From positions 1-36,668 of IMG/VR virus record IMGVR_UViG_3300030099_000154: a stretch of DNA of 36,668 nucleotides. One strand, written 5' to 3'. The position numbers and the translations under genes are program-made. The DNA comes from a virus. Numbering within the stretch: position 1 is the stretch's first letter; each line of letters opens with the position of its first letter. The notes beneath the pieces are model-generated. The model was given only the letters and a program-made list of their open reading frames with translations, made no database searches and was not told the DNA's origin. Positions 4,664 through 30,351 of this stretch are shown piece after piece.

Positions 4664-6484
4664 ATGGTGCAACCAGTAAAAGGTTCAGGAATAGGGGCGG
4701 TTAATATTCCTGAAATATTAACGAGTAAACCTAAAATTCTACAAGGACTAGGTACTGCCATAGCTCCTCCAGTGGAGGGAGGAGGTTTTATAGGGTTAAG
4801 TGAGGTACCTGCCTCTGGCTTACCAAATATTATGCCCGGTGAAACCAACATATTTGATGTTGAAGGTTCTGGAAGCTTTACTATTCCAACTAAACGTGGT
4901 CCTGAAACCCTTTCTGAATTTGCTAAATCTAATCTTTCTGGGTTTATGGATATGTTTAAGCCCGGTCCTGAAGACAAAATAAGACAAGCCAGAGCAAGAG
5001 GGCAAATAATACCTGGTGTTTCTGATGAAGTAGAAGCTATGGCAATAAGAGATGCGTCTGATGCTAGGGCAACGGCTGACGCAGCGGGTCAGTTAGCTGG
5101 CGGTCAAGAAACCAGTAGAATATTATCTGAAGCGGCAAAGGGAAAAATATTTGGAGATCAGTCCAAGACAACCACAAAAACTTCAGATGGGACAGAAAAA
5201 ACCAGTACAAAAGTTCCCGGCGCTGACACTCCAGCTAAACAAGCGACAGTTCAAGCCCTTGACGAATATTTAAAACAAGCACGCCCCGGTGTTAAGCCTA
5301 AAGAATATGCAGATTACATAAAAGAATTTAGTGATGCGACTGGACTTGATGTATCTGGTCAGCCAGATAATAGCACTGCTCTCATGGCATTTGGTTTGGC
5401 GTTGATGCAAAACAAGGCTGGTAAAGGTTTTAATGTTGGCAATATATTAAGCTCTGTTGGAGAAGCTGGTCAAACAGCATTGCCAGAACTTACTAAAGCT
5501 CGTTCAGAGGCTCGTGCGCTTCGTGCTAAAGCTGGTGAGTTTGCAATCAGTCGAAAGAGAGAAGATCAAGCTGCGGCTAGAAATCGTCAGTCTATATTTG
5601 TCGTTCCTCGCAGCGGTCAAGGTAAAACAGAAAAAGATCAATTAAGAGACAGGTTGATGAAAGGAAGATATATTTCTGTTAATTCTTATGAATTAGATGC
5701 TTTAGCGAATGCAGAGGGATTTGATCAGAATTACGAGATCATGCCGGGTGATGTTCTTGGTCAAATGGATAATTTGTTTAAGGCTGAAGAAAGTAAATAC
5801 AGCGATAAAATGACTGACTTCCTTTTATTTGGAGGAGCGGATGACGCATTTAAAGTAAAAACTTATGCACCTAAACCAGATCATACTAATTTAAACTCAA
5901 GAGCCATATCTGCCACTGAAATACGAAGAGCAGAAAGTGCAATTAATAATGGACTTGAAAAATTAGATACTCTTGATAAGAAATTTAGTGAATTTAAAAC
6001 TAGGTTTAGTGAAACTCCTCCCAAGTTATTTAATCAAATAGGAAGTGATATATTTCAATTTGGGCAAGCTTTAGGAATTGGTCTTCCTGATGACTTTGAT
6101 GAAATATCAAAATTAGAGGATGACGTAGCTTATCAAAAAAGGTTTACAGAGTATTTAGCCACAAGATATGCGCCACAAATTTTGCAAGAGGCTGGAAAAA
6201 CTATATCTGATGCTGACAGGCAAAGAGTTCAAGCCATTGTGGGTGAAATAGGTAAATTAAAGTCTCCTGCTGGAGTGGCTGCAAGAATGAGGGAGTTGCA
6301 CGAATTTATTGTTCTTGCTGGTCGTAAAAATATGGAAACCGCTATGGTCAATCTTAGCAGAGTTGGTGGTTCTTTAGAGTCTGGTAATTTATCCCCAGAT
6401 GAAGAAAGAAGGTATAATCAACTTGTAGCTCGTTATAAAATAGCTTCTGCTCCTAAACAGCAGGAGAAAAAAGAAGATGAATAA
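4664..6484 (+). CDS. Internal virion protein candidate (606 aa) with GKTISDADR module
   Basis: A 606-residue, mainly helical protein preceded by GGAGAG at good spacing. The N-terminal 60 residues are Gly/Pro/Ile-rich. The middle is charged and Lys/Thr-rich (KTTTKTSDGTEKTSTK), followed by helices. Near residues 507-530 it carries AGKTISDADRQRVQAIVG followed by SPAGVAARMREL. This module recurs twice in the small protein at 31105-31701. The C-terminus is charged (KQQEKKEDE). Its stop overlaps the next gene by 8 bp. The size and position between two ejection-type proteins suggest an internal core protein of the virion; no enzymatic domain was recognised. Confidence 0.72.
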   Translation: MVQPVKGSGIGAVNIPEILTSKPKILQGLGTAIAPPVEGGGFIGLSEVPASGLPNIMPGETNIFDVEGSGSFTIPTKRGPETLSEFAKSNLSGFMDMFKPGPEDKIRQARARGQIIPGVSDEVEAMAIRDASDARATADAAGQLAGGQETSRILSEAAKGKIFGDQSKTTTKTSDGTEKTSTKVPGADTPAKQATVQALDEYLKQARPGVKPKEYADYIKEFSDATGLDVSGQPDNSTALMAFGLALMQNKAGKGFNVGNILSSVGEAGQTALPELTKARSEARALRAKAGEFAISRKREDQAAARNRQSIFVVPRSGQGKTEKDQLRDRLMKGRYISVNSYELDALANAEGFDQNYEIMPGDVLGQMDNLFKAEESKYSDKMTDFLLFGGADDAFKVKTYAPKPDHTNLNSRAISATEIRRAESAINNGLEKLDTLDKKFSEFKTRFSETPPKLFNQIGSDIFQFGQALGIGLPDDFDEISKLEDDVAYQKRFTEYLATRYAPQILQEAGKTISDADRQRVQAIVGEIGKLKSPAGVAARMRELHEFIVLAGRKNMETAMVNLSRVGGSLESGNLSPDEERRYNQLVARYKIASAPKQQEKKEDE

Positions 6485-9455: not shown

Positions 9456-9916
9456 ACAAAGATAGATTACGCGAAGAGATAGCCGCTGATGAAGGCGTTA
9501 AACTCAACAGTGAAGGTGATCATATCATATATTTAGATCACCTATCACTCCCAACCTGTGGTGTGGGTCATTTAATTACTGAGTCAGATGAAGAGTATGG
9601 CAAACCTGTAGGCACAGTCGTTGAAAAAGAGAGAGTGCGGAAATTGTTCGCCTTAGACATTGCAGTGACTATAGACGAGTGTCGAGTGCTATATGATGAC
9701 TTTGATGACTTACCAGAAGAAGCACAACATATTATTGCAAACATGTGCTTTAATATGGGACGCCCCCGGTTGTCTAACTTTAAAATGATGAAAGCTGCTG
9801 TGGACGCTAGAGACTGGAATGAAGCCGCAGAACAGATGATAGATTCTAGGTGGCACGATCAAGTCCCGAATCGAGCCAAGCGTTTGGTTAAACGGATGAG
9901 AGCGTTAGCTGACTAA
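9452..9916 (+). CDS. T4-type lysozyme / endolysin (GH24, 154 aa)
   Basis: A muramidase that cleaves the peptidoglycan glycan strand for lysis, or possibly for entry. The T4 lysozyme pattern is clear. The catalytic Glu lies in AADEG (E14), the Asp in YLDHLS (D29) and the Thr in TCGVGHL (T35). Further conserved phrases are IANMCFNMGRPRLSNF and the C-terminal SRWHDQVPNRAKRLVKRMRAL, matching SRWYNQTPNRAKR of T4. The Glu-Asp spacing is 15 residues against 9 in T4, because of an insertion around NSEGDHI; Asp-Thr spacing is unchanged. There is no signal peptide or membrane anchor, so export should need a holin. The start lies in an ATGA overlap with the 992-aa gene. Confidence 0.93.
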   Translation: MNKDRLREEIAADEGVKLNSEGDHIIYLDHLSLPTCGVGHLITESDEEYGKPVGTVVEKERVRKLFALDIAVTIDECRVLYDDFDDLPEEAQHIIANMCFNMGRPRLSNFKMMKAAVDARDWNEAAEQMIDSRWHDQVPNRAKRLVKRMRALAD

Positions 9917-10092
9917 GCATTAACAGCCGCAGACCCTATCCCACCCTGTCCGTATTTTTTATCAAAAGCATCAGCAGTTAGCTTGGCTATTTGCTGGCGC
10001 ACATTCCTATGCTCGTCTTCTGAAAGCTTTACCAGTTTTTGATGTGTTGTTAAATCAACTCCAACTGACTTGAATTTAGTTGTGTCTGGCAT
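9913..10092 (-). CDS. Ribbon-helix-helix (Arc-like) DNA-binding protein, 59 aa
   Basis: The only convincing minus-strand gene. I chose the ATG at 10092, giving MPDTTKFKSVGVDL as N-terminus, because upstream codons add an implausible Trp/Cys-rich extension. An alternative ATG at 10107 is possible. KFKSVGVDLTTHQKLVKLSE matches the Arc/MetJ-type pattern of one beta strand (KSVGVDL) followed by helices (HQKLVKLSE, VRQQIAKLTADAF). Such proteins dimerise and bind DNA with the strand pair. It is convergent with the lysozyme (4-bp overlap of ends) and divergent from the nuclease at 10137, with a 44-bp gap between starts. It could repress itself and the early genes. The assignment rests on pattern only. 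Confidence 0.7.
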   Translation of the reverse strand: MPDTTKFKSVGVDLTTHQKLVKLSEDEHRNVRQQIAKLTADAFDKKYGQGGIGSAAVNA

Positions 10093-22840: not shown

Positions 22841-22899
22841 TGTAACGTGTGGTTGCTGCACCAGTAACCAGAAGAATTGTTCTACTTAGGAGGGGCGTA

Positions 22900-23427
22900 A
22901 TGCCGAATGTCGGAGAAGATCTACCAAAGGAACAGCGTCTTGCTGGACACAAAAGATTAACACCACAGCAGCAACAGTTTCTGGATATGTATCTGCACAA
23001 GGATATGACACAGACTGAAGCGGCTCGTCAGGCAGGGTACAAAAACCCCACAGTGCAAGCTGTACGGCTGTTGCGTAACCCAGTTGTAGCGGAACGCCTA
23101 CAGGAGATGAGACTGGAGACACAGGCCAGATTTGGCGTAACAATCGATAAGTCTATTCGTGACCTAAAGAAGATTCGGGATCAGGCGTGGGAAATGGGCA
23201 AATTTAGCGATGCGTTGAGGGCAGAGGAGCTACGTTTAAAGGCAGCGGGACTACTAATCAACAAGCAGCACGTTGTTAAAGAGGAGATCACAGCGAATAC
23301 AAAACAAGATATTGCTAATAAATTGGCTGAGTATAAGCGTTTGGCTGAGTCGCGTATGAGAAACGTAACACCAGATATGGACATAATAGAACATGAACCA
23401 CAAGATATAGTTAAAGATAGCGCATAG
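22900..23427 (+). CDS. terS: Terminase small subunit (175 aa)
   Basis: Recognises the packaging site and hands DNA to the large subunit. The chosen ATG at 22900 follows a perfect AGGAGG; an upstream GTG frame to 22849 is rejected because it covers the hairpin region. The N-terminal part is a terminase_2-type helix-turn-helix: LTPQQQQFLDMYLHKDMTQ, then TEAARQAGYKNPTVQAV and LLRNPVVAERL (HTH about residues 36-60). A long helical oligomerisation region follows (KFSDALRAEELRLKAAGLLI) and the tail is acidic. It lies 5.4 kb upstream of the large subunit, an unusual separation. The HTH and family assignment are by eye. Confidence 0.85.
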   Translation: MPNVGEDLPKEQRLAGHKRLTPQQQQFLDMYLHKDMTQTEAARQAGYKNPTVQAVRLLRNPVVAERLQEMRLETQARFGVTIDKSIRDLKKIRDQAWEMGKFSDALRAEELRLKAAGLLINKQHVVKEEITANTKQDIANKLAEYKRLAESRMRNVTPDMDIIEHEPQDIVKDSA

Positions 23428-23475
23428 CCCAGATATTCCCATAAAACACTCCGCGCGGGGGTAGGAGACGTTGAC

Positions 23476-23566
23476 CTTCGGGCTTTAGGGGGTCTGAATC
23501 GAGATGGGGGCTTCGGGATCGGGCTTTTTCGGGGTTCGGGCTTGACATCTGATCGGGTTCGGGGTC
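23476..23566 (+). repeat. G-rich CTTCGGG tract A
   Basis: A G-rich, non-coding tract between the small terminase gene and a terminator, with several TTCGGG words (first at 23476-23482, last at 23559-23564) and GGGGG runs. Its segment 23508-23529 recurs with one mismatch at 24040-24061 in tract B. It is compositionally unlike its AT-rich neighbours. The 293-bp gap 23428-23720 holds this tract, an 8-bp CCGCGCGG palindrome (23451-23458), a terminator and promoter P4, but no gene. Confidence 0.72.
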
Positions 23567-23594: not shown

Positions 23595-23638
23595 GCCCCA
23601 GTAGCCGCCTAAAGCTGCTGGGGCTTTTTATTTTTTTT
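23595..23638 (+). terminator. Strong intrinsic terminator after tract A
   Basis: GCCCCAGTAGC (23595-23605) pairs with GCTGCTGGGGC (23614-23624) with one G-U pair and an 8-base loop, followed by a long T-rich run (23625-23638). It should stop transcription coming from the small terminase unit just before promoter P4. Confidence 0.88.
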
Positions 23639-23659
23639 GTTTTTTTGTTTTTTTTCTTG

Positions 23660-23689
23660 TTGACTAAGTGTTGCAATGATTGCTATATA
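23660..23689 (+). promoter_or_regulatory. Promoter P4 with perfect GCAAT-G-ATTGC dyad
   Basis: TTGACT (23660-23665) and TATATA (23684-23689) are 18 bp apart. The spacer has TGCAATGATTGC (23672-23683), in which GCAAT and ATTGC form a perfect dyad around one base. This would let a dimeric regulator block RNA polymerase. It lies right after the terminator and upstream of a small gene with GGAGGG. Confidence 0.83.
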
Positions 23690-23720
23690 TAATAAGTAAG
23701 TTAAACAGGAGGGCAAAACA

Positions 23721-23975
23721 ATGCATAACATTACAGAACACACTGGCAAGTTAAGACTCATAAAAAGATTAAAAAATTCTATCAACGGGAATCCTCGTTT
23801 TGAATTAGCAATTATGGATGATCCGGAGCGAGGTTTAGGCTGGACCTTTAAAACTGGGGTTGATAGCGCACATGGTTATGAAGTGCAAAACTACATGGAT
23901 CGTGATGTTGACGTTACTGTTACTATCGGGACACATTATGGGAGTGCAACATTGAATAGTATCTGTCGGGCTTAG
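23721..23975 (+). CDS. Small conserved phage protein, NGNPRFEL type (84 aa)
   Basis: An 84-residue protein behind promoter P4 with a good ribosome site (GGAGGG). Its layout, KLRLIKRLKNSINGNPRFEL, then GWTFKTGVDSAHGYEVQNYM and a beta-rich DVTVTIGTHYGSATL, matches a common type of small phage protein (S-x-NGNPR-x-E motif, then a DSA-x-GYE-x-N motif) of unknown function, probably a small beta barrel. It stands alone between two promoters and stops just before the G-rich tract B, so its mRNA would carry that tract as its 3' end. Function unknown. Confidence 0.75.
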   Translation: MHNITEHTGKLRLIKRLKNSINGNPRFELAIMDDPERGLGWTFKTGVDSAHGYEVQNYMDRDVDVTVTIGTHYGSATLNSICRA

Positions 23976-23982
23976 ATTCTTC

Positions 23983-24061
23983 GGGCTTCGGGGTCTTCGG
24001 GGTCTTCGGGGTCTTCGGGGTCTTCGGGCTTCGGGCTTCGGGCTTCGGGGTCGGGCTTTTT
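23983..24061 (+). repeat. G-rich CTTCGGG tract B with G-quadruplex motif
   Basis: Ten G-runs start at 23983, 23990, 23999, 24008, 24017, 24026, 24033, 24040, 24047 and 24053. Most are separated by CTTC or TCTTC. Positions 23990-24020 are four GGGG runs with identical 5-base loops, a strong G-quadruplex motif in both the non-template DNA strand and the mRNA. The array lies right after the stop codon at 23975 and ends in a T-run. The 241 bases to 24216 hold this array, an AT-rich stretch and promoter P5, and no gene. Confidence 0.9.
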
Positions 24062-24152: not shown

Positions 24153-24181
24153 TTGATATGATGCAATGATTGCTATATAAA
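24153..24181 (+). promoter_or_regulatory. Promoter P5 with perfect GCAAT-G-ATTGC dyad
   Basis: TTGATA (24153-24158) and TATAAA (24176-24181) are 17 bp apart. The spacer has TGCAATGATTGC (24162-24173), identical to that of P4. The start of RNA would be near 24188, so the in-frame ATG at 24187 is unlikely to be used; 24217 is preferred. Confidence 0.85.
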
Positions 24182-28866: not shown

Positions 28867-30351
28867 ATGGATGATGTCCTTGATATAGCTACCGAGTTTC
28901 TGACTGATGCAGAGCTTGAGTCTCTTGGTAAGCATTTAGACAAGTACAAGGAGTTGCATCAGCGAGAGGAACTTCAGACAAGCTTTCTTGATTTTGTAAG
29001 GCATGTCTGGCCTTCATTTATAGCTGGTAGTCATCATAAGATTTTTGGTGAAAAGTTGGAGCGTGTGGCAAGAGGTGAGTTAAAGCGTCTGATTGTCAAC
29101 ATGCCACCAAGACACACTAAATCAGAGTTTGCGAGTTATCTGTTTCCTGCTTGGGTTATGGGGCAGAGGCCAGAAACAAAGATTATTCAGGCAACGCACA
29201 CGGCGGAGTTGGCTGTAGGTTTTGGTCGTAAGGTCAAGAACTTGCTTGATAGTGAGATCTATCGTGATGTTTTTCCTGACATACAATTAGCTAGAGATGC
29301 GAAGGCCAGTGGTCGTTGGTCTACGGATATGGGTGGAGAGTATTACGCTGTTGGTGTAGGCGGTGCGCTTGCTGGTCGTGGTGCTGATCTGTGTATTATT
29401 GACGATCCTGTATCAGAACAGGATGCGTTATCACCAGCCGCGCTGGATAATATTTACGAATGGTACACATCAGGGCCGAGACAGAGATTACAGCCGGGCG
29501 GATCAATAATCATCGTGATGACACGGTGGAGCATCCGCGACTTGACAGCGAAGGTTTTACAGAAACAAGCCGAGGGCGGAGCGGATCAATGGGAGGTTGT
29601 GGAGTTTCCAGCGATATTTCCCGATACAGACAACGTGTTGTGGCCAGAGTTCTGGAGCAGGGACGAGCTAGAAGGCGTTAGAGCTTCTATACCTGTAGCC
29701 AAGTGGAACGCACAATATCTTCAGAATCCTACTGCTGAAGAGGGTGCGATTATTAAAAGGGAGTGGTGGAATGTTTGGGATCATGATGATCCACCTGTCG
29801 TTGATTACGTCATCCAGTCGTATGACACCGCCTTCACCAAATCCGAAAGGGCCGATTATTCGGCTATTACGACTTGGGGTGTGTTTTATCCTGACGAGGG
29901 TGATGAGGCTGCGATCATATTGCTGGATTCAGAAAAGGGTCGATGGGAGTTTCCAGAGCTTAAAGACGCGGCAATGCGCTTGTATGAAGAATTTGAGCCA
30001 GACATGGTGCTGATAGAGCAAAAGGCATCTGGAACACCGTTAACGCAGGACTTGCGTAAGATGGGTATTCCTGTGTCTGGCTTTACGCCGGGTCGTGGTG
30101 CAGATAAGTTTTCTCGTATGAACGCCTGTGCGCCTGTTTTTGAATCAGGTATGGTCTGGTGTCCAGACACTAGATGGGCGGAAGAGGTTATTGAGGAATG
30201 TGCGTCATTTCCCAATGGAGAGCATGATGACTTGGCGGATTCGATGACACAGGCTATACTGCGTTTTAGGCAGGGTAGTTTTATACGCACTCGTTCTGAT
30301 TACGAAGACGATGATTTGGCAACTTACAGGCGTAGCAGGGAGTATTACTGA
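28867..30351 (+). CDS. terL: Terminase large subunit (494 aa)
   Basis: The DNA packaging motor with ATPase and nuclease domains. The ATPase has a Walker A-like MPPRHTKSE (K85), Walker B LCIIDDP (D179, D180), and the MTRWS coupling phrase that follows. The RNase H-like nuclease domain shows YDTAFTKSERADYSAITTWG (D320, D330) and the C-terminal EHDDLADSMTQAI (D454, D455, D458) acidic site. The 494-residue length is normal for the family. The start is three bases after the 816-aa gene; the stop overlaps the next gene (TGATG). It lies 5.4 kb from the small subunit. Confidence 0.93.
   Translation: MDDVLDIATEFLTDAELESLGKHLDKYKELHQREELQTSFLDFVRHVWPSFIAGSHHKIFGEKLERVARGELKRLIVNMPPRHTKSEFASYLFPAWVMGQRPETKIIQATHTAELAVGFGRKVKNLLDSEIYRDVFPDIQLARDAKASGRWSTDMGGEYYAVGVGGALAGRGADLCIIDDPVSEQDALSPAALDNIYEWYTSGPRQRLQPGGSIIIVMTRWSIRDLTAKVLQKQAEGGADQWEVVEFPAIFPDTDNVLWPEFWSRDELEGVRASIPVAKWNAQYLQNPTAEEGAIIKREWWNVWDHDDPPVVDYVIQSYDTAFTKSERADYSAITTWGVFYPDEGDEAAIILLDSEKGRWEFPELKDAAMRLYEEFEPDMVLIEQKASGTPLTQDLRKMGIPVSGFTPGRGADKFSRMNACAPVFESGMVWCPDTRWAEEVIEECASFPNGEHDDLADSMTQAILRFRQGSFIRTRSDYEDDDLATYRRSREYY

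Follow-up and report, generated by a model that had tools for sequence, protein, structure and literature searches.

In phage P1, pac occupies a single short region, and its hexanucleotide repeats are sites of methylation. The pac site of phage SPP1 contains direct repeats grouped in sets where the small terminase gene lies, and the small terminase subunit (TerS) of phage SF6 binds pac DNA without a marked preference for its repeats (PMC4737164); the replication origins of SPP1 combine direct repeats with an AT-rich region (PMC6316719). HTVC023P-type pelagiphages have been described as ranking with the ocean's most abundant phages (PMC10149686, PMC9599517), and a limited literature search yielded no description of packaging or replication sites for them.

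The viral DNA analysed here as a whole, hereafter the window, is linear, a fragment of 36.7 kb. Its G-runs belong to paired, directional arrays of the pentamer TCGGG in the interval between the genes of the small and large terminase subunits (terS and terL), an arrangement which is conserved, downstream of terS and on its strand, across a large and diverse group of marine phages that includes relatives of the HTVC023P-type pelagiphages. No earlier description of such arrays was found in a limited literature search (subscription journals and preprints excluded). P1 pac shares with them a very short word in several copies, held in separate clusters at a packaging gene, whereas TCGGG is non-palindromic and strictly directional. 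Like the pac sites of SPP1 and SF6, the locus has direct-repeat sets at the small terminase gene and a related TerS DNA-binding domain (PMC4737164); the SPP1 boxes, however, overlap the start of that gene, whereas the window group repeats a pentamer many times, in two or three arrays that lie 3' of terS and as much as 2 kb from one another. Iteron origins (SPP1 oriL and oriR, PMC6316719) likewise set direct repeats beside AT-rich DNA, and DnaA boxes occur in one lineage here, but the present units measure 5 bp and the arrays are tied to terS and terL rather than to a replication gene. Bacterial G-quadruplex (G4) motifs, finally, resemble the window array in their regular G-runs and in G4 potential on the coding strand, but the word conserved here includes TC, and the arrays of sister phages score low for G4 on that strand.

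TCGGG arrays and their surroundings in the window

The features of the interval, all on the plus strand, are as follows.

22849..23427, plus strand: terS, terminase small subunit (Pfam Terminase_2, phrog_51)
23457..23564, plus strand: array 1, a GGGGG element followed by 7 TCGGG units, conserved across TerS relatives
23595..23640, plus strand: intrinsic terminator (11-pair stem plus T-run), 3' of array 1
23664..23691, plus strand: promoter-like segment with GCAATGATTGC inverted repeat, by sequence resemblance only
23721..23975, plus strand: small gene between arrays 1 and 2 (84 aa, phrog_20597, function not assigned)
23966..24056, plus strand: array 2, 11 TCGGG units, holding the reported G-runs
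28867..30351, plus strand: terL, terminase large subunit, the downstream boundary of the array-carrying interval

The earlier note on this DNA had drawn attention to ten regularly spaced G-runs, and all ten (three or more Gs each) are present, at 23983, 23990, 23999, 24008, 24017, 24026, 24033, 24040, 24047 and 24053; as it had also claimed, TCTTC separates four GGGG runs at 23990-24020, and a TAG stop codon (23973-23975) lies just 5' of the G-runs. An eleventh run, absent from that account, was found at 23968, within the last codons of the 23721..23975 open reading frame (ORF), and the 3' end of array 2 reads GGGCTTTTT. Whole-window shuffles (n = 20) contained at most six G-runs per 90 nt, compared with ten or eleven in array 2, and TCGGG was observed 11 times in the array-2 region against a mean of 2.9 and a maximum of 7 in 1000 dinucleotide-preserving shuffles of that region. 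Other parts of the description require correction: the phage had been called AT-rich, but the GC content of the window is 43%, which is not strongly AT-rich, and array 2 is not solitary, a second, similar array at 23457-23564 having been overlooked. When all 5-mers were scanned blindly with a threshold of at least six copies in 90 nt, the window gave only two clusters, at 23478 and 23966, both of TCGGG. The T-run said to end array 2 is present in the window but is not conserved; a conserved intrinsic terminator at array 2 was rejected because most relatives lack the T-run, and the true terminator follows array 1. Compensatory changes support the stem of the latter, the sole fold backed by the alignment.

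Array 1 begins 30 bp past the stop codon of terS, the true start of which is probably a conserved ATG at 22900. The DNA-binding domain of the window TerS matches solved small terminase subunits of the SPP1/SF6 family (E 8e-6); a structure model of TerS (mean pLDDT 61.5) was too weak for use. The promoter-like segment has a counterpart: 23669-23689 and 24159-24179 match at 20 of 21 bases and have TGNTGCAATGATTGCTATATA in common, and the inverted repeat GCAATgATTGC, which could be an operator to judge from its sequence, sits in the spacer. On the minus strand, a perfect -35/-10 pair (TTGACA, 18 nt, TATAAT; 24223-24194) predicts leftward transcription across array 2; the overall count of promoter-type -35/-10 sites is not above chance. 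A conserved CCCCGTGCGGGGGG element was considered as cos-like, but this is not claimed, its phage matches being without useful significance.

Conservation of the word, its place and its direction

Eighty relatives were retrieved through TerS as IMG/VR loci, and the blind scan identified TCGGG arrays in 77 of them (124 arrays in total) and clusters of no other 5-mer in the 80 loci. A G-run array starting about 30 bp after the terS stop, equivalent to array 1, is present in essentially all TerS loci with enough sequence past terS, and a second array follows 0.5-2.3 kb downstream in most of those that reach far enough; at this place the relatives keep G-runs rather than unrelated sequence. The comparison of repeat number suggested by the earlier note gave 11, 13, 8 and 9 units for array 2 among close relatives. 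The two TCGGG arrays are also the main clusters in the family's larger contigs, and the few other 5-mer clusters are confined to two contigs.

What is conserved is the word TCGGG, set between variable neighbours, and not the G-run. G-runs are preceded by TC in 523 of 633 cases in array 1 and 318 of 397 in array 2, as compared with 1-6% of other G-runs. Across aligned relatives, conservation is 0.76 for T, 0.77 for C and 0.86 for G, but 0.49 and 0.59 for the flanking bases, a contrast that holds for the immediate neighbours only, since words conserved in their own right occur among the region's other positions (mean 0.69). The array step is mostly 6-7 bp. The array does have four or more G-runs with short loops, as a G4 would; conservation, however, is not restricted to G-runs with freely varying loops, since the TC before the G-run is kept.

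A reverse search was carried out in which viral contigs were scanned with the repeat alone, and at least 61 loci were recovered in which an array counts five units or more. Among the matches listed, 55 of 61 loci encode a TerS of the family, and in these 55 all 101 arrays are downstream of terS on the same strand, with none opposite, although the loci are related by descent and counts of this kind are not independent trials. Of the six listed loci without TerS, five (L144, L153, L177, L203 and L204) have family proteins, namely amidoligase, GGCT, TerL or portal; the sixth, L150, is an unrelated contig of 73% GC. Beyond the family, a search of viral contigs for the exact TCTTCGGGG repeat mainly returned unrelated sequence containing few TCGGG units. 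The family TerS was not found in bacterial genomes, and thus no host was obtained by way of a prophage.

The GC content of array-bearing phages ranges from about 33 to 55%, indicating that TCGGG is not a by-product of composition. The word is common to two lineages with TerS only ~26% identical, as distant from each other as each is from the TerS of HTVC027P; it is consequently old and does not simply track TerS sequence.

Two further observations were made in these loci. In L080 and many relatives, a gamma-glutamylcyclotransferase-like gene precedes array 2 and an amidoligase-like gene follows it (names assigned by eye); neither is seen in the window. A palindrome, CGAACAATTGTTCG, and its half, ATTGTTCGGG, recur between genes in L005, L074, L080 and other TerS loci; it is possibly a repressor operator by its sequence, and has few copies in the window and none at its arrays.

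Sister phages carry other words at the same place. In HTVC027P-like pelagiphages (TerL ~60% identical), arrays of GCTTG with an exact 7-bp step lie upstream of terL in all 17 loci with enough sequence; 36 of 36 arrays are in terL orientation and none is reversed. Phage 023Pt has a GCTCG array. Coding-strand G4 scores of the GCTTG and GCTCG arrays are low or negative. In HTVC027P terS itself is inverted, yet the arrays, at 16.5-17.5 kb of its record, remain between terS and terL. No pentamer array turned up in HTVC023P-like phages; in HTVC023P, repeats of 33 bp directly follow terS and others of 58 bp lie 2.4 kb further on.

Candidate functions of the arrays

We tentatively prefer, at somewhat short of an even chance, the explanation that the arrays belong to the packaging module as a cis-acting, directional DNA element, similar to a pac site; their constant association with terS and terL, their invariant orientation and the precedent of SPP1 point to it. 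The arrays lie next to packaging genes and are conserved with them, and they are direct repeats of fixed orientation to those genes (101/101 listed for TCGGG, 36/36 for GCTTG). They would act as double-stranded DNA landmarks, and their reader would most simply be a ring-shaped TerS together with TerL or a packaging partner, whose co-operative binding to the numerous short repeats would label the phage DNA, together with its direction, and determine where the first cut falls. In this lineage the word would happen to be G-rich, and that richness would not be the functional principle. Several observations count against a pac site: paired arrays can be more than 2 kb apart, SF6 TerS shows no marked preference for the pac repeats (PMC4737164), HTVC023P-like phages gave no pentamer arrays, the DnaA-box clusters of one lineage point to replication instead, and TCGGG is indifferent to the divergence of TerS, which counts, mildly, against TerS itself as the reader.

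A replication origin, possible but in our judgement doubtful, would consist of short iterons next to AT-rich DNA, recognised by an initiator, with DnaA involved in some phages. It is the main rival because, in L175 and L186, an array is immediately followed by clustered DnaA boxes (TTATCCACA), and the 3.5 Mb of retrieved loci contain no other clustering of this kind. The boxes lie after the last TCGGG array, at 6006-6066 of the reverse complement in L175 and 4796-4876 of the reverse complement in L186. AT-rich tracts follow both window arrays, as at the SPP1 origins (PMC6316719), and the 33-bp repeats of HTVC023P are iteron-like. Near their arrays, however, the window and almost every other relative lack DnaA boxes, no initiator gene consistently adjoins the arrays, 5-bp units are unusually short for iterons, and the window has no GC-skew switch at its arrays, which is not decisive.

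It is also conceivable, though unlikely, that the arrays are neither a classical pac site nor an origin but a distinct class of phage cis-element, a lineage-specific, non-palindromic pentamer repeated at steps of about 7 bp, in two or three arrays of the same orientation between terS and terL, read by some repeat-reading protein.

A role in RNA or through a G4, with the arrays as a G-rich 3' UTR, appears improbable, whether it be pausing of polymerase, protection of the mRNA end or capture by an RNA-binding protein; the earlier note's broader suggestion that the array binds a protein may still hold. The strong G4 motif that had been reported is real in terms of potential (G4Hunter 1.6-1.7, maximum 1.72), but it is TCGGG and not the G-run that is conserved. 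Both window arrays lie just past a stop codon, the coding strand carries them, and array 1 precedes an intrinsic terminator, all of which would suit a role in RNA. Against this, in a low-GC lineage (L154, L170, L175, L186 and L189) array 1 lies inside an ORF that overlaps the end of terS, where it encodes an in-frame Ser-Gly linker of variable length; by eye the ORF is nuclease-like (GGGVPD...ELK), with no Pfam match. An array-carrying ORF after terS was seen in L200 as well as in these five loci. In L209, the gene matching the GP88-type gene of the window lies in inverted orientation between the two arrays; array 2, although it stands between an inverted and a forward gene, keeps its direction, as does array 1. 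Together, the in-frame array 1 and the L209 inversion favour a DNA-level role tied to genome orientation. These two cases and the sister GCTTG arrays, with their low coding-strand potential, mean that a G4 that stops polymerase or protects the mRNA end is not the best general explanation, and the T-run is not conserved. The predicted RNA fold was no stabler than shuffles (z -1.1, in a programme without a G-quadruplex model), a result that held for both arrays, and a search of Rfam returned no credible family.

That a ribbon-helix-helix-like protein reads the arrays, as an operator or a centromere, is a slightly fainter prospect. Arrays read by such proteins are exemplified by the 7-bp heptads of plasmid pSM19035, and the steps here, exactly 7 bp for GCTTG and 6-7 bp for TCGGG, are of that order; a small conserved ribbon-helix-helix-like protein has its gene on the minus strand, at 9913-10092 in the window, and likewise in three relatives (61-81% identity). 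The assignment, however, was made by eye with no Pfam match, the gene shows no link to the arrays, and the promoter-like segments do not overlap them.

Neutral tandem-repeat expansion without function would account for the varying copy number of array 2, but is very improbable given an identical word, place and direction despite TerS divergence to ~26% identity and a GC content spanning 33-52%. Chi-like hot-spots that shield phage ends from host AddAB or RecBCD nuclease are scarcely credible: the words are short, G-rich, directional and possibly host-specific, and Chi of B. subtilis is a pentamer, but when the sister word GCTTG was checked in two genomes presumed, on GC and size alone, to be SAR11, it ranked 120/1002 and 338/1024, not notably over-represented, and AddA matches were weak.

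Whichever protein reads them, the arrays provide one conserved, countable word that predicts where packaging or replication may start in this group of marine phages, and TCGGG helps to recognise the packaging module in metagenomes. Since the word changes from TCGGG to GCTTG between sister lineages, the specificity of protein for DNA can be tested in cultured HTVC027P.
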